Assembly: GCF_026191915.1 (NCBI RefSeq)
Contig: NZ_JAIMBY010000001.1
Location: 124,001 to 188,000, forward strand
Direction of reading: 5' to 3'
Length of the DNA stretch: 64,000 bases
Source of the DNA: Acidiphilium sp. PA
Lineage (GTDB): Bacteria > Pseudomonadota > Alphaproteobacteria > Acetobacterales > Acetobacteraceae
Below are positions 23,493 to 35,183 of this stretch, in pieces. Position 1 is the stretch's first letter. Each line of letters begins with the position of its first letter. A program made the position numbers and the translations under genes. The notes under the pieces are model-generated. The model did no database searches. It was not told where the DNA came from and saw only the letters and a list, made by a program, of their open reading frames with translations.

Positions 23493-25457
23493 TCAGTGCG
23501 AACCCGCCCGCCCCAATCGGCGGTGCAACGTGCTGCGCGACACGCCGAGCAGCCGCGCCGCCCCGGAGATGTTGCCCCCGGCGGCCTCGATCGCGCGATG
23601 CATCGCCTCCGCCTCGATATCGACCAGCCGGCCCGAGGCGGGCGCGTCATCGGCCGCACCCCCCCGCATATCGAGCGGAATTTCATCGATCCCAACGTCC
23701 GCGCTCTCCCCCGCGAGCAGCAGCGATTCGACCAGATTGCGCAGTTCACGCACATTGCCCGGCCAATGATAGGCGCGCAGCACGGCCAATAGCGCCGGGC
23801 CGAACCGGCGGGGCGGCACGCCGTGCCGCGCCGCCACGCTGGCGTTAAAATGCTCGATCAGCAGATCGACATCGCCGCTCCGCGCGCGTAACGGCGGCAC
23901 GGTGATCGAGGTCACGTTGATCCGATAGAACAGATCCCGCCGAAACCGCCCCGCCGCCACCTCGTCGCGCAAATCGCGGTTGGTCATGGCGACCAGCCGG
24001 ACCGCGACCTTGCGCGGCGTGGTATCACCGAGCCGATAAATCACGCCCTCCTCCAGCGCCCGCAGCAGCAGCGGTTGCAATTCGAGCGGCAGTTCGCCGA
24101 TCTCATCGAGGCACAACGTGCCGCCGTCGGCGAGCTCGAACCGCCCCGGGCGGCCATCCGCCGTGGCACCGGTGAACGCGCCTTTGACATGGCCGAACAA
24201 TTCGGCGCCGATCAGATCTTTCGAAGCCGCGCCGCAATTGAACACGACGAAGGGCGCCGAGAAATCAAGACTGCCGTGCATGGCCCGCGCGAGCAACTCC
24301 TTGCCCACACCGGTCTCGCCATGGATCAATACCGGCACACGGTGCCGTGCGAGCTGTTCGGCCCGCCGGGTTGCCTGCAGCATGGCGGCGCTGGCCCCGA
24401 TGATGTGATGAAACGCGCTGCGGCTCGCATCCGCCTCAGACCCCGCCGGCGGCGCCGCGAGTTTGGCGGGCCGGTTGCGGGCCGGCACCACGATCATCGC
24501 CCCCACGGTACGATCATCGAGCACCACGGGGTCGAACGCGCCGTCCGCGCGCAAAGGCTCGGGCATCCGGTCGAACCAGCGCTCCACCGGCTGATCGGGA
24601 TCGAAACCGGCCAGGGTCTCGCCAAGCCCCGGCAACGCGCCTTTGCCGTTGGAATAGACGATCCGCCCGCTGCGATCGATCGCGAGCAACTCGGCGTTGC
24701 CGATCATCGGCATGCGCTGAAGGCAGCGTTCCAGCAGGCGCACCCGCTCGCGCCCGCTGCGTTCGGCAAGCGCGGTCTCGATCTGGCGCGCGGTCGCCAC
24801 CGCAAGCGAAAGATTGCCGCGCTGGTAGGTCGAGGGCGGACCCGAAATATCGACCACGCCGAGAATCCGCCCGCTCCCCGGTTCGCGGACCGGCGCGGCC
24901 GCACAGGTCCAGCTTTTGATGCCCTCGCAGAAATGCTCGGTGGCGTGCACCTGAGCCGGCTGGCCGGTTGCCAGGGCCGTACCGATCCCGTTGGTGCCAA
25001 TCACATCCTCGCGCCAGTGCCCCCCGGCGACTAGGTGTATCCGCTCGCCCTGCCCCAGCGTGCGATGGTCCCCCACCGCTTCGAGCACGATCCCGTCGGG
25101 ATCGGTCAGCAGCATCATGCAGTTCGAACCGGCGAACACATCGGCGATCCGCTGAAACAGATCACGCGAGGCCGCGATCAGGTCGCGGTTGCGATGGCGC
25201 AGGGTCAGGATCGAATCGCCCTGTGCTGCGATCGGTGCGGCCCGGCCGGTCGGATTGACGCCGAGGGCCAGGCTCCGCTGCCAGGACGAGACAACAACAT
25301 GGCCCAGCGGAATCGCTGCCTCAGGTTCGCCGGTCAGAAACCGCTCCCACGCCCACATCGCATCCCGGTCCGGCAGCGCCTCGGCACGCGTCGCCAGGTC
25401 CGTGCGCACCCGCGTCCGGTCAGCGTCGATCGGCTCGTTGATCCGCCGTTTCGGCAA
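23493..25457 (-). CDS. Sigma-54-dependent activator (AcoR/MimR-like), last gene of the monooxygenase operon
   Basis: This enhancer-binding protein should activate the sigma-54 promoter(s) of the monooxygenase genes. Of 654 residues, about 90-240 form a GAF-type sensor (REDVIGTNGIGTALATGQPAQ, CAAAPVREP). A PAS-like part (about 250-320) follows. The AAA+ domain (about 355-580) has Walker A HGETGVGKELLARA, the sigma-54-contacting GAFTGA, Walker B GGTLCLDEIG and an arginine-finger region. The C-terminal Fis-type helix-turn-helix is GGNISGAARLLGVSRSTLHRRL. The start is a TTG (25455-25457) with a perfect GGAGG 5 bases upstream; the next Met is 33 residues on. It follows the chaperonin gene by 12 bases. 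The inducer is unknown. Confidence 0.9.
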   Translation of the reverse strand: MPKRRINEPIDADRTRVRTDLATRAEALPDRDAMWAWERFLTGEPEAAIPLGHVVVSSWQRSLALGVNPTGRAAPIAAQGDSILTLRHRNRDLIAASRDLFQRIADVFAGSNCMMLLTDPDGIVLEAVGDHRTLGQGERIHLVAGGHWREDVIGTNGIGTALATGQPAQVHATEHFCEGIKSWTCAAAPVREPGSGRILGVVDISGPPSTYQRGNLSLAVATARQIETALAERSGRERVRLLERCLQRMPMIGNAELLAIDRSGRIVYSNGKGALPGLGETLAGFDPDQPVERWFDRMPEPLRADGAFDPVVLDDRTVGAMIVVPARNRPAKLAAPPAGSEADASRSAFHHIIGASAAMLQATRRAEQLARHRVPVLIHGETGVGKELLARAMHGSLDFSAPFVVFNCGAASKDLIGAELFGHVKGAFTGATADGRPGRFELADGGTLCLDEIGELPLELQPLLLRALEEGVIYRLGDTTPRKVAVRLVAMTNRDLRDEVAAGRFRRDLFYRINVTSITVPPLRARSGDVDLLIEHFNASVAARHGVPPRRFGPALLAVLRAYHWPGNVRELRNLVESLLLAGESADVGIDEIPLDMRGGAADDAPASGRLVDIEAEAMHRAIEAAGGNISGAARLLGVSRSTLHRRLGRAGSH

Positions 25458-25469
25458 TCCAGCCTCCGG

Positions 25470-27101
25470 TCATGCCCTCCCGAGCAACTCGGCGCCGCCG
25501 CCCAGCGCAGGGCCCGCCGTCGGGTCGTCGTAATCGGGTTTATCCGCGATCAGCGTATGCGTGGTCAGGATCAGGGACGCCACCGAAACCGCATTGCGTA
25601 GCGCGCTGATGCTGACCCGCACCGGATCGATGATGCCGGCCGCCTCCATGGCCACCATCCTGCCGCTCCGCGCGTCAAGTCCGGTGCCCGGCAGCGCGGC
25701 CGTCACCTGCGCCACCATCGCCTCGGCGTCGAAGCCGCTGTTGGCCGCAATCGCCGCCAGCGGCGCGGTCAGCGCATCGCGCAGCAGCAGCGCGCCGGCC
25801 CGCGCGCCGTTCAACAGCTTCGCGTTCGTGTTCAAACTCGGCGCGATCTGCGCCAGCGCCGTGCCGCCACCGGCCACCACGCCCTCGGCAATCGCCGCGC
25901 GCGCGGCTGCCAATGAATCCTCGATCAGCTGGGCATGGCGCTTCTGCGCCACCGGCGTCGCACCGCCCGCCATGATCGTCGCGGTGCCACCCGAGAGCTT
26001 GGCAAGACGCTGTTCGAGCTTGTCGCGATCGATGTCGTTGGGCGCCAGATCGACCTGGCGGCGCACCTGCTCGCGCCGTGCCGCGATCGCGGCAAGATCG
26101 CCGCCGCCGCCCGAAATCACCGTCATGCCCGCGCCGACGCGCACCTGCCGCGCACTGCCCAGATCGGCGCGGCTGGCATTGGCGATCGTGCCGCCCAGTT
26201 CACGCGCAATCACGCGCCCGCCGGTGATGATCGCGATATCCTCGAGCATCGCCTTGCGCCAATGGCCATACTCGGGCGGATGAATGGCAGCGACCGGCAC
26301 GCCGCCCGCACGGTCCGCCAGCAGCGCCATCACCGCGGCCGGTGCCACCTCCTCGGCGATCACCAGCAGCGGCTGGTTGCTCGCACCCACCAGCGCGCGG
26401 ATCTGTTCGATCTCGGCGGCGGTGGTGATTTTCAGGTCGGTCATCAGGATCAGCGGATCGTCGAGCACCGCCTGCATGCGCTCCACATCGGTGACCATGT
26501 GATGGGAAATATAGCCGCGGTCGAAGCCCATGCCGTCAACCACATCGAGCATCGTCTCCACCGTCGCGCTGTTCTCGACGGTGACGATCCCCTGCGGCCC
26601 GGCCCGCTCGATCGCCTCGGCCACCAGCGCGCCGGTCGCCGCATCGTTCGCGGCGATCGTCGCCACCGCCCGCATCTCGGCCGCATCGCGCAGCGGCCGG
26701 GCACGGGCGCGCAGGGCGGCGATCACCTCCTCCGCCGCCGCCTCGATCCCGGCGACGAGTTCCACGGCATTATCGCCCGCCGCCATCCGCGCGAGGCCCT
26801 TCTGCACCAGCGCATCGGCCAGCACCGTCGCGGTCGTGGTGCCATCGCCCGCCTCGAGATTGGTCTGAGCGGAAACCTCGCGCAGGATCTGCGCCCCCAT
26901 GTTCTCGAACCGGCACGCAAGCTCGACCTCGGCGGCGATCGAGACGCCATCACGCGAGACCATCGGCGTGCCGATCGGCCGGTCGATGATCGCGTTCATG
27001 CCGCGCGGCCCCATGGTGCCACGCACCGCCCGGGCCAGTTGCGCGACGCCACGCCCCAGCGCGGCGCGCGCGTCATCGTCGTGGAGCATCATCTTGGCCA
27101 T
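25470..27101 (-). CDS. prmG: GroEL-like chaperonin dedicated to the diiron monooxygenase (MimG/PrmG type)
   Basis: A divergent Hsp60 paralogue of 543 residues. It keeps the ATPase signature LEAGDGTTTATVLADALV (residues about 83-100) and the equatorial GRGVAQLARAVRGTMGPRGMN. It lacks the C-terminal GGM repeat of housekeeping GroEL, ending instead in GGGAELLGRA. No groES is present. In mycobacterial Mim systems a specific chaperonin-like protein is needed for soluble, active hydroxylase (established for MimG). Its place here, between the coupling protein and the regulator, supports the same role. GGGA lies 6 bases before ATG 27101. A hairpin repeat (27132-27155) separates it from the coupling-protein gene. 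Confidence 0.92.
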   Translation of the reverse strand: MAKMMLHDDDARAALGRGVAQLARAVRGTMGPRGMNAIIDRPIGTPMVSRDGVSIAAEVELACRFENMGAQILREVSAQTNLEAGDGTTTATVLADALVQKGLARMAAGDNAVELVAGIEAAAEEVIAALRARARPLRDAAEMRAVATIAANDAATGALVAEAIERAGPQGIVTVENSATVETMLDVVDGMGFDRGYISHHMVTDVERMQAVLDDPLILMTDLKITTAAEIEQIRALVGASNQPLLVIAEEVAPAAVMALLADRAGGVPVAAIHPPEYGHWRKAMLEDIAIITGGRVIARELGGTIANASRADLGSARQVRVGAGMTVISGGGGDLAAIAARREQVRRQVDLAPNDIDRDKLEQRLAKLSGGTATIMAGGATPVAQKRHAQLIEDSLAAARAAIAEGVVAGGGTALAQIAPSLNTNAKLLNGARAGALLLRDALTAPLAAIAANSGFDAEAMVAQVTAALPGTGLDARSGRMVAMEAAGIIDPVRVSISALRNAVSVASLILTTHTLIADKPDYDDPTAGPALGGGAELLGRA

Positions 27102-27228: not shown

Positions 27229-27594
27229 TCAGTCGTATTTGATGTATTCCATCGCCTCGTCCATGTCGCCGAACAACACAACGGTGTTGTCATCGACCAT
27301 CACCATGCGGCCATAATGGGTCGAGGTGGAAATCTCGAACAGATAAGGCGTCATGACACGGCCGAGTGCTTCGGAAATCTCGTCCATCTTGAACGTCATC
27401 TTGCCTTCGCCATCGATGCGGATGAGCGCCGGCTGGTAGGTCACCGAAATGCCCGGCTTTTCAGCCATCACATCGGCAATCGCGCGGGCTTCGACACTGT
27501 CGTTCATGGTCACGCCGCACTGGTGCGAAATCGTGCCCTCGAACTGCATGTCCTTCATCGATTTGAAGATCGTCGCGGTATGAGCTTGAGCCAT
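27229..27594 (-). CDS. prmD: Monooxygenase coupling/regulatory protein (MmoB/PrmD/MimD family)
   Basis: A small cofactor-free effector that binds the hydroxylase and gates electron and substrate access. The 121-residue protein fits the family in length and sequence style: VTMNDSVEARAIADVMAEKPG, VTYQPALIRIDGEGKMTFKMDEISEALGR and a C-terminal tail ending MEYIKYD. AAAGGA lies 8 bases before ATG 27594. It follows the beta-subunit gene by 24 bases, within the A-B-C-D order of propane monooxygenase operons. Confidence 0.92.
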   Translation of the reverse strand: MAQAHTATIFKSMKDMQFEGTISHQCGVTMNDSVEARAIADVMAEKPGISVTYQPALIRIDGEGKMTFKMDEISEALGRVMTPYLFEISTSTHYGRMVMVDDNTVVLFGDMDEAMEYIKYD

Positions 27595-27618
27595 GGGGTC
27601 TATCCTTTATTATAACGA

Positions 27619-28701
27619 TTACTGATCCAGCGTGGCACGAACATCGAAGCCGATCTCAGCCGCGATCGCGCGCACCCGGTTTTTCGCGAGATCGAGCGCA
27701 TCGGCGAACTGAGCGACCTTGACCCGCGGTTGCGACCAGATCGGCTGCAGATGATGCGCCGCATCGAGCGCGAGCGAGCCGTGCTTGTGCATCCATTGCA
27801 CCAGGATGGCCCGGTTACTGTCGCCATGGTCCGGGTCGAGCACCAGGATGTGAAACAGCTCGACCGCATTGGCGAGGTTGCGCTCGTAATCACCCTCGGC
27901 CGCCGCCACCACCGCCGGTGTCATGAAATCGTTCTGCGCCGCCGCCATCTGCATGACGAACCCGCTGCGGAACAATTCACCGACCAGGGGCTCGAACACG
28001 ATGTTGGTGGCGAAATACTGCTCCAGATAGTCGGTCGCCCCCATCACCGCCTCGGTCGCGTGGCGCGTCCCCTGCCAGATCGGGTCTTCGAGCCAATGCT
28101 GCTTGCCCGCATCAAGATCGATGCCCTCGATATCGAGCGCGAGTTCGCCCAGATACAGCGTCAGATCCTGCGAGAACCGCAGTTTGTACGAGGAATTCGT
28201 CAGGATCGCGTTATTGATCATCTGCGTATAGCCGTAGCGCTGCGCCTGCATCGTCGCCGTGCCCAGGCCGAATTCGGCATGTTTGTACGCGCCGAGATGA
28301 TCGGACAGCACCTTGACCCAGGCCCGGTCGAACCGCTTCGGCGCACCGGAGCGGCGGCCGTTTTCGATCAGGTTGCTGATCATGCCGACAATGGTGGACT
28401 GGCGCTGGTAATGGGTGCGTTCCCACTCCTGATCGACCGCGCGGAACTGATGCCAGTTGGACGATTTCAGCGCCGTCCAGGTCTTGTCATAGGTCGGCGT
28501 GCCATCGGCGAAGCTGATGATCCAGTCCTGCAGCAGATAACGCTCCGGATCGGGCTGCACATCGACCGTCATATCCTCGTAATGGCTCGCCTTTCGGCCC
28601 TTCGGCTCGAAATAATTGTATTTGCGGCTGTCCGAACCGGCGAAGGTGGCGGACCCGGCGGCGCCGGATTTCTGGGGTGACGGTGTCTCGGTGACGCTCA
28701 T
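27619..28701 (-). CDS. prmC: Diiron monooxygenase hydroxylase beta subunit (PrmC/MimC)
   Basis: The beta subunit packs against the alpha subunit in the (alpha-beta)2 hydroxylase and holds no iron site. The 360-residue protein has the family motifs GRKASHYEDMTVDVQPDPERY, WTALKSSNWHQFRAVDQEWERTHYQ, FGLGTATMQAQRYGYTQMIN and NIVFEPLVGELFRSGFVM. Length (about 360) matches PrmC/MimC. AGGAGA lies before ATG 28701. It sits between the reductase and the coupling-protein genes. Confidence 0.93.
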   Translation of the reverse strand: MSVTETPSPQKSGAAGSATFAGSDSRKYNYFEPKGRKASHYEDMTVDVQPDPERYLLQDWIISFADGTPTYDKTWTALKSSNWHQFRAVDQEWERTHYQRQSTIVGMISNLIENGRRSGAPKRFDRAWVKVLSDHLGAYKHAEFGLGTATMQAQRYGYTQMINNAILTNSSYKLRFSQDLTLYLGELALDIEGIDLDAGKQHWLEDPIWQGTRHATEAVMGATDYLEQYFATNIVFEPLVGELFRSGFVMQMAAAQNDFMTPAVVAAAEGDYERNLANAVELFHILVLDPDHGDSNRAILVQWMHKHGSLALDAAHHLQPIWSQPRVKVAQFADALDLAKNRVRAIAAEIGFDVRATLDQ

Positions 28702-28727
28702 CGTGTCTCTCCTGATTATCGTTGATC

Positions 28728-29765
28728 TCAGCGAACGGCGGTGGTGAATTTGTCGAAATAGATATGATCCGGCTCGACCCCGGCCATCTGCAGAACCGGC
28801 AGAACGGCATCGATCATCGGTGGTGGTCCGCAGGAATAGGCGTCCATCTCGCCTTCGAGCCCTTCGGCGCGCAATCGTCGTGCCAGCACCTCGTGAATGA
28901 AACCGCGCTCGCCGGTCCAGCCATCGCCATCCTCGGCGTGCGACAGGGCCGGAATGAACCGGAAATCCGGCAAGGCCGCTTCCAGCCGTGCGAATTCATC
29001 GAGATAGAACAGATCGGCCCTGGTGCGCGCCCCATAGAAAAACCGCACCGCCCGATGCTCGCCCGACGCCACATGATCCTGCAGGATGGACCACAAGGGC
29101 GACATGCCCGACCCGCCCCCGATCAGCAGCATCGGCCCCGGCCGGTCCTCGCGCCGGAAACACGTGCCGTACGGGCCCTTGATGCTCAGCCGATCGCCCG
29201 GCTGCAGAACGGTATCGAGCGAAGCTGAAAACGCGCCATCGGGGTATTTCTTGATGATGAAGGCAAGCCGGTCCGGCTCGCCCGGCGGGCTGCCCATCGA
29301 ATAGGCCCGCGTCACACCATCCGCCAACGTGATGTCGACATACTGGCCGGCCCAGAACTTCATGGGTGCGCCAAGCGCCACGGTCATGCGGCGGATGTCG
29401 TGCGTCAGATGTTCGATGCCGGTCAGAACCGCGTCGTAAGCGCGCACCGGAATCGAGCGGCGCAGCAGATCCTCGTCATAGTTCAACAGTTCGATCTCGA
29501 GATCGCTGTAAGCGTGCGTCTTGCACAGAAGAATATGCCCGGTATCACGCTCGTAATCGGGCAATGCGAAGGTCGAATATTTGAGCAGTTCGATGTCGCC
29601 GTCGATCAGCTTCGATTTACAGGAGCTGCACTGGCCTTCCTTGCACCCGTGCATCACGGAAATACCCTGTCGGAACGCGGCATCCAGAACGGTCTCGCCT
29701 TCCTCGACCTCCATTTCGATGCCGACAGGCTCGAACCGGACCTTATGCGTCGTAATCACAGTCAT
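28728..29765 (-). CDS. prmB: Monooxygenase reductase (2Fe-2S ferredoxin plus FAD/NAD domains; PrmB/MimB)
   Basis: This protein transfers electrons from NADH through FAD and a plant-type 2Fe-2S cluster to the hydroxylase. The 345-residue sequence starts with a ferredoxin domain whose ligands are C41, C46, C49 and C81 (HGCKEGQCSSCK...LLCKTHA). The FAD-binding region follows, with TRAYSMGSPPGEP (R-x-Y-S motif). The NAD-binding part has LLIGGGSGMSPLWSILQD and a C-terminal YSCGPPPMIDAV. All cofactor residues are present. It lies between the alpha- and beta-subunit genes, as in other group 5 operons. Confidence 0.94.
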   Translation of the reverse strand: MTVITTHKVRFEPVGIEMEVEEGETVLDAAFRQGISVMHGCKEGQCSSCKSKLIDGDIELLKYSTFALPDYERDTGHILLCKTHAYSDLEIELLNYDEDLLRRSIPVRAYDAVLTGIEHLTHDIRRMTVALGAPMKFWAGQYVDITLADGVTRAYSMGSPPGEPDRLAFIIKKYPDGAFSASLDTVLQPGDRLSIKGPYGTCFRREDRPGPMLLIGGGSGMSPLWSILQDHVASGEHRAVRFFYGARTRADLFYLDEFARLEAALPDFRFIPALSHAEDGDGWTGERGFIHEVLARRLRAEGLEGEMDAYSCGPPPMIDAVLPVLQMAGVEPDHIYFDKFTTAVR

Positions 29766-29841
29766 GACGTTTCCCGTTGGTTTTTATCGTTCGGAAAAAA
29801 GCCGCCGGGCACAGCAATCGTGCCCGGCGGAACGAAACAGG

Positions 29842-31512
29842 TCAGTTCAGCGGATTGATCACGAAACCCTTGCGGTATTCCGCCGCCGCCGCCGCCTTGC
29901 CTTCCGCCGACAGGCTGCGGAAATTGAGCAGCGGGCTGCCCAGCTGATGGCCGCGCACGTCGTCGAGCGTCCACATCTTGCTGTCGTCGAAATGCAGATG
30001 CGGCTGCGGCACCAACGTCTTGCCGTCGTTGCGGACGAAGCCGAGGTCGGTGATCGCATCGGCGATATCCCAGCCGTCGTAGCAGGTCTCCCACTCACGA
30101 CGGCCGCTGAACCGCCCCATCGCCGGCGTCGGGCGCCCTTCGTATTCCGCGGCGAACGCAACCTTGTGGGTCCAGCGGCACGTCTCCGAGCAGTAGGTAT
30201 AGGTCTGCCCGTCCACCTCATCATAGGTGAAATCTTCGCGGATCAGGCAAGGCACCATGCAGGACCAGCAACGATGCGGATACACATACCCCACGTCGGC
30301 GTTGAACAGCACCTGCGTCTCGCCCTTGTGGCTGAGCTTCTCATACCATTTCCAGTAATTGCCGAACTCGGCGTACCAGCCTGGATATTTGTGCTCGAAC
30401 CACTCGAAGTCTCTCTCGGTCTGCGCCTCGATGCGCCAGAAATTGACCGACCAGCCAACCGAGAAGAACTGCGCCGTCTTGTGCACGTAATTCTTCTTGA
30501 CGATCCGGTCCCAGGCCGCCGCGACATCATCGTGATGGATCTTGATGCCGTATTTCTCGAGCGGCAGCATGTACGTGCGGTAGTAATCCTCATAGATCCA
30601 GCGATGCCACAATTCGGCATAGCTCTCCTTGTTCTTGTTGCGATCGGTCGTGCCGTATTCGACAAACGTGCCGATCGCGGCATCGACGATCGCGTGATTC
30701 TGCCAGAACGCGTATTTGATGTCGCGCTCGAGCAGCAGGTGGTTGTCCGGGTCGTTGATCAGCGACATCAGCAGCGAATGGCCGTTGCCGATATGGCGGC
30801 TCTCGTCGGACTGCACCGACAGGAACACGGTCGGCAGCGCATAGTCGCCGTTGCGCGCCGCTTCCGATGGCATGGCGACGAACAGGGTGTTGGTGAAAGC
30901 GGTTTCCGCGACCACGGTCAGATAGATGTTGGCCGAGGTGATCGCATCACCCGTCACGAAGCCCTCGGCGAACTGCCGCCCGATCGTCGAGGCATAGCAT
31001 TTGCCGAACGCCGCTTCGGTGATGTCAAAGCCCGCCGGATCGATGTAGTTTTCCATGTACCATTTCTTCAGGTTCATCTGAATCGTGGAGTGGCGGAATT
31101 CATCGACCATCTGCATCGCAAAGCCGGTGCGCAATTCCTCGCCCGGCGCCAGGCGCCCGACCATCGCCATCGAGCGCGCGGCCGAGATTTCCGGGAACGG
31201 AATGATCGCGAGAAACAGTTTCATCCACTCGACCCAGCGCGGCTGGACATTGCGGAACATGTCGCCGCGCAGCGCCGCATCGAGCGCGCCATAGACCCGG
31301 TTGTCCTTTTCTTCCTGCATCGGGAAGTAGGAGCGAAGCACCTGCTTCATCGGATCGCGTGGGGTCTTCTTGATCTTGTAGTCGGTCGGGAAGGTCATCG
31401 CCTCCTGAACGTAGCTCGGCGTCCAGCCGAGATCCGCGACCCGCCGGGTCGCATCGCTGATGCTCATCCCCTTCTGGGCCGTAATTTTGTTGAGCGTTAA
31501 GCTATCAGGCAT
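29842..31512 (-). CDS. prmA: Soluble diiron monooxygenase hydroxylase alpha subunit (propane monooxygenase-like, PrmA/MimA)
   Basis: This is the catalytic subunit that oxidises small alkanes, ketones or phenols at a carboxylate-bridged diiron centre. The 556-residue protein carries the six ligands: E108, E138 and H141 (DEFRH), E203, E237 and H240 (DESRH). The C-terminal region has CWSCMVP...CSETCRW, typical of this subgroup. Size and order of neighbours (A, reductase, beta, coupling protein, chaperonin, regulator) match group 5 (PrmABCD/MimABCD) rather than group 3 methane/butane or group 1 toluene enzymes. GGGAG precedes ATG 31512. A sigma-54 promoter lies 117-132 bases upstream. The true substrate (propane, acetone, phenol) cannot be read from sequence. 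Confidence 0.94.
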   Translation of the reverse strand: MPDSLTLNKITAQKGMSISDATRRVADLGWTPSYVQEAMTFPTDYKIKKTPRDPMKQVLRSYFPMQEEKDNRVYGALDAALRGDMFRNVQPRWVEWMKLFLAIIPFPEISAARSMAMVGRLAPGEELRTGFAMQMVDEFRHSTIQMNLKKWYMENYIDPAGFDITEAAFGKCYASTIGRQFAEGFVTGDAITSANIYLTVVAETAFTNTLFVAMPSEAARNGDYALPTVFLSVQSDESRHIGNGHSLLMSLINDPDNHLLLERDIKYAFWQNHAIVDAAIGTFVEYGTTDRNKNKESYAELWHRWIYEDYYRTYMLPLEKYGIKIHHDDVAAAWDRIVKKNYVHKTAQFFSVGWSVNFWRIEAQTERDFEWFEHKYPGWYAEFGNYWKWYEKLSHKGETQVLFNADVGYVYPHRCWSCMVPCLIREDFTYDEVDGQTYTYCSETCRWTHKVAFAAEYEGRPTPAMGRFSGRREWETCYDGWDIADAITDLGFVRNDGKTLVPQPHLHFDDSKMWTLDDVRGHQLGSPLLNFRSLSAEGKAAAAAEYRKGFVINPLN

Positions 31513-31628: not shown

Positions 31629-31644
31629 TGCAAGTTTGGTGCCA
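31629..31644 (-). promoter_or_regulatory. Sigma-54 promoter of the monooxygenase operon
   Basis: On the minus strand the sequence is TGGCAC-CAAAC-TTGCA, an exact match to the -24/-12 consensus TGGCAC-N5-TTGCW. Transcription should begin about 12 bases downstream, near 31617, giving a leader of roughly 105 bases before the alpha-subunit ATG. The nearby sigma-54 activators make this a high-confidence call. Confidence 0.93.
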
Positions 31645-31750: not shown

Positions 31751-31948
31751 TCATGGCGCTGATGTGTCATCGGAGGCGCCGCGATGTTCGGCGAAGCTCT
31801 TGCCCTCCGCGATCCAGCGGGCCGCCAGCACCAGCACGCCCATCGCGAAATCCTTGCCATGCGCTGCAATCATGCGTTCGGCGATCATGCCGAGTTCCTT
31901 GAAAAACCGATCTTTCGAGGCTTCTTCGTCCGTCATCGGGCCGGTCAT
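31751..31948 (-). CDS. 65-residue helical protein coupled to the WD40 gene
   Basis: The product MTGPMTDEEASKDRFFKELG followed by MIAERMIAAHGKDFAMGVLV and a charged tail looks soluble and helical, with one amphipathic segment and no membrane span or cysteine. No family is recognised. The start ATG (31946-31948) overlaps the WD40 gene's TGA in an ATGA junction, and AGGAGA lies 6 bases upstream, so translation is well supported. It ends just before the activator sites of the monooxygenase promoter. It may work with the WD40 protein or the hydroxylase, but there is no direct evidence. Confidence 0.75.
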   Translation of the reverse strand: MTGPMTDEEASKDRFFKELGMIAERMIAAHGKDFAMGVLVLAARWIAEGKSFAEHRGASDDTSAP

Positions 31949-33042
31949 TTCATCTCTCCTCTGCCGCCCTGAACCGGGCGGAACAACAGATCGGGCAACA
32001 GCACCGTGCCGGCCTCGCCATCGACGGTCGCAAACGCCAGCGCCGCGCCGCTCGGCGTGAATTCCAGCGCAACCGGCGCACTGCCGGCCTCGCGGATCAG
32101 CATGACATCGCGCAGCCCCGGCCGCCCGAGCACCACCCGCCCCGCACGATCGGCGCAGGCCACCAGGCCCAGCCGCGGATGGCACGCGATCGGCCCGACC
32201 GCCTGGCGCCCATCACGCCCGATCGCGAACCGCCGCGCCCCGCCCGTGGCATCCCAAACGTAAACATCCTCATCGCCCCCGATCACCAGAACACCCTCGC
32301 TGGTGAAACCCATCGCGGTGGCGCGCATCGGGATGTCGATAATGCGCCACGCATCGCCCGCCCGATCGCGCATCACCACACCCCCGCCCGGCACAGCGGC
32401 GGCAAACCGCGCCCCCTCCGCATCCCAGCAGATCACGCGAAACGCCCCGGGCGCTTCAAACCGCGGCGCCGCGCGGACCGCGCAGGCTTCGAGCGACACA
32501 CCGCCCTCATACCCGATCGCGAGATGCAGGCCGGATGGATCGAAACAGAGCGCGACAACCGGCCCCGGCAGGCTCAGGCGCTTCTGATCCGGGCCGAGCT
32601 GGTCGACCTGCCGGCCGGCGGCGAATGCGCGCCGCCCGCCGCGCCCGGCGGCAACCGCATTGATCTGCCGGCGTGCCCGTGCCGCAAGCTCGGTCACGCC
32701 GCCCTCGGCGAGCCGCAGAAACCGGCCATCGGCACCGCCCGATACCACCCCGCCCAGCGGATCGGCGGCGAGCGACAAGGTCGCCGCCCGATGGGCGCCG
32801 ATGATCACGGGCGGTGGTGGCGGCGCGGCGGCGGCAATGATTTCGATACCCCCACCCGGCCGCGGCGCCAGGCGCGGCGCGCCCTGCCAAAGCGACGCCA
32901 GACAGGCGAGCGCGCCGTCCGCAAGACCGAACACCGCCGCGTCACCATCCCAGACCAATGCGTTGATCGTGGTATTGAAGACAAAACTCGCCCCGAGCAG
33001 ATCATGCAGGGGCGGCGGAGCTTGAGCGGCGGCGACATCCAT
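31945..33042 (-). CDS. WD40-like beta-propeller protein under a sigma-54 promoter
   Basis: The 365-residue protein (from ATG 33042) is built of about seven short beta-rich units ending in patterns such as VVSGGADGRFLRL, VVALCFDPSGLHLAIGYEGG, VICWDAEGARFAAAVPGGG, AMGFTSEGVLVIGGDEDVYVWD, PIACHPRLGLVACADRAGRV and ALEFTPSGAALAFATVDG. This points to a seven-bladed WD40-type propeller, probably a protein-protein scaffold. No signal peptide is seen, so it should be cytoplasmic. The longer frame begins with TTG at 33093, upstream of the predicted transcription start, so ATG 33042 is preferred. It is followed by the 65-residue gene (ATGA overlap) and lies between the monooxygenase operon and the second activator. 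The function is unknown. Confidence 0.8.
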   Translation of the reverse strand: MDVAAAQAPPPLHDLLGASFVFNTTINALVWDGDAAVFGLADGALACLASLWQGAPRLAPRPGGGIEIIAAAAPPPPPVIIGAHRAATLSLAADPLGGVVSGGADGRFLRLAEGGVTELAARARRQINAVAAGRGGRRAFAAGRQVDQLGPDQKRLSLPGPVVALCFDPSGLHLAIGYEGGVSLEACAVRAAPRFEAPGAFRVICWDAEGARFAAAVPGGGVVMRDRAGDAWRIIDIPMRATAMGFTSEGVLVIGGDEDVYVWDATGGARRFAIGRDGRQAVGPIACHPRLGLVACADRAGRVVLGRPGLRDVMLIREAGSAPVALEFTPSGAALAFATVDGEAGTVLLPDLLFRPVQGGRGEMK

Positions 33043-33053
33043 GCGAGGGCAAT

Positions 33054-33069
33054 AGCAATTGCCGTGCCA
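33054..33069 (-). promoter_or_regulatory. Sigma-54 promoter of the WD40 operon
   Basis: On the minus strand TGGCAC-GGCAA-TTGCT is an exact -24/-12 match. The -12 GC lies at about 33055-33056, so transcription should start near 33043. That is right at the ATG (33040-33042), implying a leaderless or nearly leaderless mRNA. Confidence 0.88.
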
Positions 33070-33302: not shown

Positions 33303-35183
33303 ATGTTGCTGCATGCCGAAGACCGCGTGGGTCAGGCGCGGGCCGCGCTCGAATCGAACGGTCTCGTCGCCGCCGACCTGCTCTCGGCCGATATCCGCGA
33401 CAGCTGGCAGCGCTGCCTCGCATCCGGGCTCGATCCCACGGCGGCGCCGCGGATCGAAAATGTCGGCGCCGATCATCTGCGGCGCGCGCGCGAGCAGCGC
33501 GCCATGGTCCACCGCCTCGCCTCGGCCGAATTGCGCGCCTTGTATCAGCAGATCGCCGGCAGCAACTTCATGGTCGCACTCGCAGCACCCGACGGCCTGC
33601 TGCTCGAGGCCATCGCCGATCCCAGCTTTGCCCGCGAAGCGCAGGCCGCCGCGATCGAGCCGGGAACCATCTGGGATGAACTCCATTGCGGCACCAACGC
33701 GCTCGGCACCACCATCGCAACCGGCACGCCGCAGAGCATCCACGGCGGCGAGCATTTCTTTCGCCGCCACAACGCCATCACCTGCGTCGCGGCGCCGGTA
33801 TTCGGGCCGGACGGCGCCCTCGCCTGCGTGCTCGATGCCTCGTCGGACTGCCGATCCCGCCAGAGCCACACCCGCGCCCTGGTCGGCATGGCCGCCATCC
33901 AGATCGAAAACCTGCTGCTGCGCGAAACCCACGCGCGCCACCGGATCATCGCATTCCACAGCCGGCCTGAATATCTCTCAACCCTCAGCGCCGGGATTCT
34001 GGTGTTTTCCGAAAGCGGGCGCGTGCTCGCCGCCAACCGCCAGGCCCGTTTCCTGCTCGCCGGGCTACCGGTCGTGATGGGGCGCAGTTTCGATGCAATC
34101 TTCCGAACCGGGTTCGGCGCCTTTCACGATGCCTGCGCCCGCGGCGACATCGGCACGCTGGAAGACCGGGTCGGCAGCGTCTACGTCGCGACGCTCGAAA
34201 CACCCAAGACCACCCGCAGCATCGCGGTCGGTGCCGGCCCGCCGATCGGCGGCCCACAAACCAGGCCGGAGATCGCGGCACCCGATTTCGTCGCCGACGA
34301 TCCGGCCGTCGCCGCCGCGCTCCGCCTCGCCGCCTCGGCCGCGGCCCGCAACCTCCCCCTCCTGATCCGGGGCGCGACCGGCACCGGCAAGGAATTGCTC
34401 GCCCGCTACGCCCATGCGGCCCGCCGGCCGCGCGGCCCCTTCGTGCCCGTCAACTGCGCGGCCCTGGCGGAAACCCTGATCGAGGCCGAATTGTTCGGCT
34501 ACGCCGACGGCGCCTACACCGGCGCCAGGCGCGGCGGCGCACCGGGTCTGGTGGCCGAGGCCGATGGCGGCACGCTGTTCCTCGATGAAATCGGCGACAT
34601 GAAACGGCCGCTGCAGGCGGTTCTGCTCCGCCTGCTCGACGATTGGACCATCCGTCCGATCGGCAGCACCCGTGCGCGGACGGTCGATGTCCTGCTGATC
34701 GCCGCCACCAATGCCGACCTCGATGCCGCAGTCGCGGCCGGGCAGTTCCGCGCCGATCTGCTCTACCGGCTCAACACCGCCGAAGTCCGTCTGCCCACCC
34801 TGAACGAACGGCGGGATTTCACGGCGATCGCCCGGCACCTGCTCGCCCGCTTCGCGCCCGGGACCACAATCACCGATGAGGCGGCCCACCTGCTTGCCGG
34901 CTCGGTCTGGCGCGGCAACATCCGCGAGTTGAAAAGCGCCCTGCTTCGCCTCGCCATGCAGCAGGACGGCGGGATCATCGACGGGCTGGCAGCGGAAACC
35001 CTGATCGGCCAGCGCGCCATGCCGTCCGTGGACCACAGCGACCCGCACGATCTGCGCGACATCGTCCGCGCCCGGATCCGTGCTGCCTTTCGCGAGAACG
35101 GCGGCAACATCAGCGCCACCGCCCGCAGCCTCGGCGTTTCGCGGAACACGGTCTATCGCGGTCTCGACAGCGCCAACCCCTGA
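33303..35183 (+). CDS. Second sigma-54-dependent activator, GAYTGA variant
   Basis: The 626-residue protein resembles the regulator at 23493-25457 in layout. It has a GAF-type sensor (residues about 60-210, LHCGTNALGTTIATGTPQS), a PAS-like stretch (about 225-310, ILVFSESGRVLAANRQARF), an AAA+ domain with Walker A RGATGTGKELLARY (near 358) and Walker B GGTLFLDEIGDM, and a Fis-type helix-turn-helix GGNISATARSLGVSRNTVYRGL. The sigma-54-contact loop reads GAYTGA instead of GAFTGA, a conservative aromatic change usually compatible with activity. GGAGG lies 5 bases before ATG 33303. It is divergent from the WD40 operon, which is its most likely target. Confidence 0.9.
   Translation: MLLHAEDRVGQARAALESNGLVAADLLSADIRDSWQRCLASGLDPTAAPRIENVGADHLRRAREQRAMVHRLASAELRALYQQIAGSNFMVALAAPDGLLLEAIADPSFAREAQAAAIEPGTIWDELHCGTNALGTTIATGTPQSIHGGEHFFRRHNAITCVAAPVFGPDGALACVLDASSDCRSRQSHTRALVGMAAIQIENLLLRETHARHRIIAFHSRPEYLSTLSAGILVFSESGRVLAANRQARFLLAGLPVVMGRSFDAIFRTGFGAFHDACARGDIGTLEDRVGSVYVATLETPKTTRSIAVGAGPPIGGPQTRPEIAAPDFVADDPAVAAALRLAASAAARNLPLLIRGATGTGKELLARYAHAARRPRGPFVPVNCAALAETLIEAELFGYADGAYTGARRGGAPGLVAEADGGTLFLDEIGDMKRPLQAVLLRLLDDWTIRPIGSTRARTVDVLLIAATNADLDAAVAAGQFRADLLYRLNTAEVRLPTLNERRDFTAIARHLLARFAPGTTITDEAAHLLAGSVWRGNIRELKSALLRLAMQQDGGIIDGLAAETLIGQRAMPSVDHSDPHDLRDIVRARIRAAFRENGGNISATARSLGVSRNTVYRGLDSANP

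Follow-up and report, generated by a model that had tools for sequence, protein, structure and literature searches.

The window, i.e., the whole stretch of 64,000 nucleotides of Acidiphilium sp. PA DNA that was analysed, contains the gene set of a soluble diiron monooxygenase, in which the alpha, beta, reductase and coupling genes are present together with the diiron ligand motifs. Read from right to left, the gene order is activator 2, WD40, P65, prmA, prmB, prmC, prmD, groEL and activator 1; sigma-54 activator 2 is encoded on the plus strand, and all genes from WD40 through activator 1 on the minus strand (Table 1). The earlier note on this DNA had described a WD40 gene and a coupled gene of 65 codons behind a perfect -24/-12 site, placed between the main operon and a second sigma-54 activator, and this arrangement was confirmed, as were PrmA, the reductase, the beta subunit, the coupling protein, GroEL and both activators. 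The 78% identity to a Methylocella tundrae protein, read together with a statement in PMC9213486 on the related M. silvestris enzyme, suggests that the window enzyme may be placed in group V. One sigma-54 gene is present in the genome of the window. A search of genome contigs for related loci gave Acidiphilium rubrum as the sole match and the closest named relative.

Table 1. Genes and sigma-54 sites of the monooxygenase locus (positions within the window).
Feature	Position	Strand	Remarks
WD40 protein, 365 aa, propane-monooxygenase-linked group	31945..33042	-	ATG at 33042, stop at 31945
P65, small helical protein, 65 aa, undescribed family	31751..31948	-	core SKDxFF...HGKDFxMGxLVLAARxIAE
sigma-54 -24/-12 site of the WD40-P65 operon, TGGCACGGCAATTGC	33055..33069	-	0 mismatches
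sigma-54 site before prmA, TGGCACCAAACTTGC	31630..31644	-	0 mismatches
prmA, hydroxylase alpha subunit	29842..31512	-	E..H motifs at 138, 237, 300
prmB, reductase	28728..29765	-	2Fe-2S, FAD, NAD domains
prmC, hydroxylase beta subunit	27619..28701	-
prmD, coupling protein	27229..27594	-	MimD-like, under NCBIfam cut-off
GroEL-like chaperonin of the cluster	25470..27101	-
sigma-54 activator 1	23493..25457	-	GAF, AAA+, Fis; GAFTGA loop
sigma-54 activator 2, divergent from WD40	33303..35183	+	AAA+, Fis; GAYTGA loop

The start codon of P65 overlaps the WD40 stop codon as ATGA, with AGGAGA ahead of it, and an alternative P65 start at 31936 (giving 61 aa) aligns better with the relatives of this protein.

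Sigma-54 sites and variants of the operon

The window has 10 sites with at most one mismatch to the sigma-54 motif, where 5.6 (sd 2.6) would be expected; 8 of 100 shuffles reach this count, and a -24/-12 motif by itself is no proof of a promoter. Three sites are perfect (0 mismatches), i.e., the two listed in Table 1 and one at 28871-28885, which falls within prmB. What makes the site ahead of WD40 convincing is its position together with its conservation, as it is the same in A. rubrum though the immediate flanking bases differ; other blocks of the WD40 intergenic stretch are also conserved there. Across 25 related loci with a clear first gene, which are related to one another and hence not independent, a sigma-54 site was found close to where the accessory operon begins in 15 (three of them without WD40; 0.28 expected from shuffles) and upstream of prmA in 13 (0.22 expected), with up to one mismatch allowed, GG and GC invariant, and a span searched from 220 b ahead of the modelled gene start to 45 b past it. 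The sigma-54 link of the pair, which had been predicted from the sequence, is supported by the conservation of the sites in A. rubrum and in these loci. The WD40 ATG follows the site after 12 bases in the window and in A. rubrum and after 13 in genome G153, from which a 1- to 2-base leader is predicted, i.e., a near-leaderless sigma-54 message for WD40 in three genomes of the genus; the predicted transcription start in the window lies one base ahead of the ATG.

In 12 of the 18 P65-bearing genomes of the family, an alcohol dehydrogenase gene leads the operon near activator 2, and P65 ends it before prmA. Two further genes, for an amidohydrolase and for a DUF59 protein (PF01883 match, E 7e-13), are found just ahead of WD40 in G196 and G023, the DUF59 gene directly preceding it. 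The window lacks the alcohol dehydrogenase, amidohydrolase and DUF59 genes; the three lie together on another contig of the same genome, where a sigma-54 site with one mismatch is found close to the alcohol dehydrogenase start. Lacking these front genes, the WD40-P65 operon of the window is a reduced form of a longer operon under sigma-54. The two-gene operon proposed earlier therefore holds as the form present in the window and not as a fixed unit, given the leading dehydrogenase gene and those loci that have P65 without WD40.

Other genes accompany the unit elsewhere. P100, an unnamed protein that is coiled-coil-like and about 100 residues long, is encoded at the unit in several loci (L032:11678-11995; L033, L060, L070 and L073) and was not found in the window. 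In several Rhizobiales-type loci the unit is divergent from prmA, often together with P148, an unnamed protein of about 150 residues encoded near the unit (L087:7990-8454; L034, L058, L081, L085, L089-L091 and L093), one member of which gave no Pfam match. Such a Rhizobiales-like version of the cluster is also present in G232 (L058), a genome of the window's own genus, which is a sign of transfer. Three clusters of Rhodobacterales (L079, L080 and L081) have their own rpoN in or near the WD40-P65 unit: in Paracoccus the unit is contiguous with the extra rpoN gene on the same strand, and in the Ponticoccus and Gemmobacter clusters rpoN genes are located nearby.

These rpoN genes, together with the sigma-54 activators that the unit adjoins in many loci, speak for a regulatory module, in which WD40 and P65 (with P100 where present) would bind and tune the activator or sigma-54 itself and thereby couple transcription to the state of the substrate or the enzyme. 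We consider this explanation unlikely, as Azospirillum loci without the pair still have sigma-54 sites before prmA and an activator, an extra rpoN was seen in only 3 loci, and the GTPase described below would be left unexplained.

Distribution of the pair among PrmA loci

The P65 profile matched 18 of the 249 genomes of the family, i.e., all 17 with PrmA (E ≤ 1e-100) and G026, whose prmA runs off the contig end (43 aa matched), and none of the remaining 231. A WD40 gene adjoins P65 in 16 of the 18, G179 and G217 being without it; in G039 it is cut by the contig end. The co-occurrence check that the earlier note had suggested was therefore strongly positive, and its view that the two genes belong with the monooxygenase was supported by P65 as well as by the adjoining WD40. 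The opposite outcome that it had named, homologues mostly without a diiron monooxygenase, was not seen for P65 (18/18 vs. 0/231) or for WD40 genes adjoining P65 (16/18 vs. 0/231), and it does apply to WD40 homologues in the wide sense, which match 132 of the 249 genomes.

Of 385 genomes drawn from the whole class, 3 have PrmA and 2 have P65, and the genome with PrmA and without P65 (G274) has no P65 anywhere in its whole sequence. A third draw of 398 genomes, meant for the phylum and with the 24 genomes listed all belonging to the same class, contained PrmA in 4, including the window's own genome, and the 3 new ones have both WD40 and P65. Among 72,556 plasmid records, P65 (E ≤ 1e-8) is present in 13, of which 11 also carry PrmA with at least 60% identity; nine records carry such a PrmA without P65. 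Plasmids from other Alpha- and Betaproteobacteria also carry the pair together with PrmA. The two P65 records without PrmA look like decayed clusters, since the plasmid of Rhizobium CB3171 has kept prmBCD, GroEL, a shortened WD40 and P65 and lost nearly all of prmA, and on the Phyllobacterium plasmid the pair is flanked by ISL3 elements, with VOC, Tat-signal and GMC genes known from other such clusters close by. On a Shinella plasmid (L093), prmA is cut beside an IS21 element, and WD40 and P65 remain.

The comparison of 39 PrmA loci revealed P65 in 31 and P65 with WD40 in 27, the four loci with P65 and without WD40 being those of G217, G179, G592 and Skermanella. Neither gene is present in the other 8 (four of Azospirillum, one of Methylocella tundrae, two of Rhodococcus, and G274), so PrmA can exist without the pair, in G274 without P65 genome-wide. 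In the unrooted PrmA tree of the 39 loci (duplicates as well as L072, with a prmA fragment, and L101, with prmA lost, were omitted), WD40 is missing in 2 of the 4 members of genus g54 and in the Azospirillum-Methylocella branch, within which Skermanella and G592 keep P65. P65 is the core of the pair, and WD40 is lost more often.

Comparing the window with A. rubrum, we found dS values of 0.08, 0.02, 0.01 and 0 for prmA to prmD and 0.24 for GroEL, while those for WD40, P65 and both activators are 0.42-0.50. As prmA-D (27229-31512) are near-identical at silent sites, it seems that recent recombination has spread a tract that comprises the enzyme genes and excludes the pair. The dN/dS values in the same comparison (about 0.22 for WD40 and 0.05 for P65) show that both genes are under purifying selection.

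The two genes might also be bystanders carried along with the cluster on mobile DNA, and it is true that some clusters are carried by plasmids that contain insertion sequences and that G232 has a cluster different from that of the window in spite of the shared genus. The match of P65 with PrmA over 249 genomes, the conserved sigma-54 sites and the low dN/dS make this explanation highly improbable. As far as sequence comparison goes, the tie of WD40-P65 to the enzyme is well shown. In the openly licensed PMC literature, we found nothing joining WD40 with propane monooxygenase or di-iron monooxygenase.

Kinship of the two proteins and the COG0523 GTPases

P65 was not named by Pfam (two members searched), NCBIfam, PHROGs or the PDB sequences; the best E-values, 0.046 in NCBIfam (33 members) and 1.4 in the PDB, gave no match to a known assembly factor, and Foldseek with the P65 model yielded nothing better than E 4.6. 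The protein was modelled as a two-helix hairpin with a mean pLDDT of 83. Identity to the window protein is 45-95% over the 33 rows of alignment A1 (of 35; the two omitted are second copies of a locus), with 7 invariant residues, compared with 18-84% for WD40 over the 24 rows of alignment A2 (of 32 matches; two non-propane ones, one fragment, one duplicate, L070, L073, L090 and L091 were omitted), and on these alignments P65 is more conserved than WD40. Another small protein, of 63 residues and unrelated to P65, is annotated between prmA and prmB in Aminobacter (L087:10713-10904).

Phenol and toluene hydroxylases contain a small third subunit, and P65, a small and highly conserved helical protein that follows PrmA in its distribution, could be a gamma-like hydroxylase subunit of this kind in these lineages, with WD40 as its partner or chaperone. 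This seems distinctly unlikely, because P65 was not found on the searched plasmids with about 80% identical PrmA (four Azospirillum loci and one of Methylocella tundrae) and is without a match among the solved structures.

For the WD40 protein, single-sequence Pfam matches were weak and under the curated cut-offs (E 1e-4 to 3e-3), and a structure model from two sequences reached a pLDDT of 39.5. Its fold is nonetheless secure, as the profile of 24 relatives matches solved propellers (best E 2.9e-53, to a WD-40 repeat protein). Eukaryotic CIAO1, also a WD40 protein, acts with MIP18 in the CIA targeting complex, and the genes of WD40 and of a DUF59/MIP18-type protein are together in many of our loci (DUF59 in 21 of the 27 with WD40, including the adjacent genes of G196 and G023). 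On this basis, WD40 could work mainly with the DUF59 protein, giving iron or a 2Fe-2S cluster to the enzyme system. However, CIAO1 (E 1e-18 to the WD40 profile) does not stand out among the many WD40 proteins matched, i.e., it shows no specific kinship, and two Rhodococcus loci carry DUF59 without WD40, so that we rate such CIA-like delivery as decidedly improbable. A tie of P65 to DUF59 was considered as well and rejected, as the Skermanella locus has P65 without DUF59 and Rhodococcus the reverse.

Score alone fails to separate the propane-linked WD40s from the others (the propane-linked protein of G232 scores only 3e-14, weaker than many other WD40s), and the two kinds were therefore told apart by their neighbours and by a tree. 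In this unrooted tree, 28 propane-linked and 18 other WD40s (16 of the latter taken from about 120 weaker matches in the family) are on opposite sides of a branch with 100/99 support, and the window WD40 is not inside the group of non-propane, mostly GTPase-linked proteins. Both kinds occur in four genomes (G017, G074, G086 and G153). At the 16 non-propane loci, a COG0523 GTPase gene is next door in 13, and P65 and PrmA were not seen within 1.5 kb flanks. Haas et al. (2009; PMC2770081) described a clustering of WD40 genes with the COG0523 subfamily 5 genes of prokaryotes, several of the latter being predicted as Zur-regulated. The GTPase-WD40 layout is found together with metal transport genes on the plasmids of Devosia and Gemmobacter aquarius.

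A GTPase search of 43 sequences (the window and 42 loci) gave matches in five loci. In four propane loci (L033, L068, L069 and L071, i.e., Caballeronia SBC1, G017, G018 and G086), the GTPase gene is located directly ahead of WD40, in the order ADH-(P100)-GTPase-WD40-P65-prmA, and the encoded proteins have cobW and CobW_C domains, Walker A and an intact CxCC metal motif. They group with 84/99 support, which is below the starred level, in an unrooted tree with very long branches elsewhere. Among 23 searched genomes, identity to the G017 protein is 71 and 73% for the GTPases of G018 and G086, and at most 57% over the length, or 61% in one partial match, for the others. The fifth match (L072) was rejected as a module member, since it is another kind of GTPase and lies beyond the activator. 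Of the 27 WD40 loci, just 4 have the GTPase of the module; there is no such gene in the window, and the genome of the window has only general ones (best 54%). Being distinct and adjoining in four loci, the GTPase appears to belong to the module in some genomes, which raises the chances of metal delivery. The role of assembly scaffold that the earlier note had offered for the pair gains indirect support from these loci, and that of stress partner gains none.

A putative maturation module

As the pair travels almost always with the enzyme and sometimes with a metal-delivery GTPase, it probably helps to build the enzyme. On balance, we favour the reading that WD40-P65 is a dedicated maturation module of the proteobacterial propane-type (putatively group V) soluble diiron monooxygenases, switched by sigma-54 together with the enzyme. 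It draws on the co-occurrence, the neighbourhood, the sigma-54 sites, purifying selection, the kinship of WD40 to COG0523-adjoining proteins and the GTPase at four loci; for metal delivery and assembly as such, regulation, a subunit role and CIA-like delivery are live rivals.

In such a module, the WD40 propeller would be the platform on which a COG0523 GTPase docks to deliver metal, a dedicated GTPase in some genomes and perhaps a general one in others. The helical hairpin of P65, with its very conserved face, would link WD40 to the slowly changing hydroxylase, and P65 would then contact the conserved enzyme, whereas the partner of WD40 would be more variable. MmoD and DmpK are credited with aiding the iron loading or folding of their enzymes, and P65 may act on the hydroxylase in the same manner; it resembles them as a small protein encoded with a diiron hydroxylase and differs in having no sequence match to named families or solved structures. 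A more specific version is possible, yet we hold it only tentatively: a single-client metallochaperone pathway in which a COG0523-type GTPase, the WD40 platform and P65 load the propane monooxygenase with metal and are produced when needed from sigma-54 promoters, with the GTPase of Acidiphilium lost or replaced by a general one.

Among the known systems, the COG0523 GTPase-WD40 pairs are alike in the homologous WD40 and in the gene order of the four propane loci, whereas the known cases are partly tied to zinc limitation and the neighbours here are a diiron monooxygenase and P65. The accessory genes known from soluble diiron monooxygenase clusters, i.e., those of the GroEL-like chaperonin, the amidohydrolase and the iron-sulfur assembly protein (the latter two drawn in the published cluster maps of PMC9213486), are found in the same clusters; WD40 and P65 are not homologous to them and are not named in the legend to those maps.

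Expressed alone, smoABCD gave no growth on alkanes, and growth was obtained with dehydrogenases and GroEL (PMC11057499). The co-encoded chaperonin is the helper stressed so far, and next to it WD40-P65 is a conserved pair that follows the enzyme through the Alpha- and Betaproteobacteria, which makes it a concrete addition for expression strains and offers a direct test of the metal supply of diiron enzymes. The targets of most COG0523 proteins were termed not obvious in 2009 (PMC2770081). If the proposed role is true, the propane monooxygenase would be a client for COG0523 GTPases and their WD40 partners, and indeed a concrete iron client for this large family, and the pair would represent a bacterial counterpart of WD40-guided cofactor delivery.
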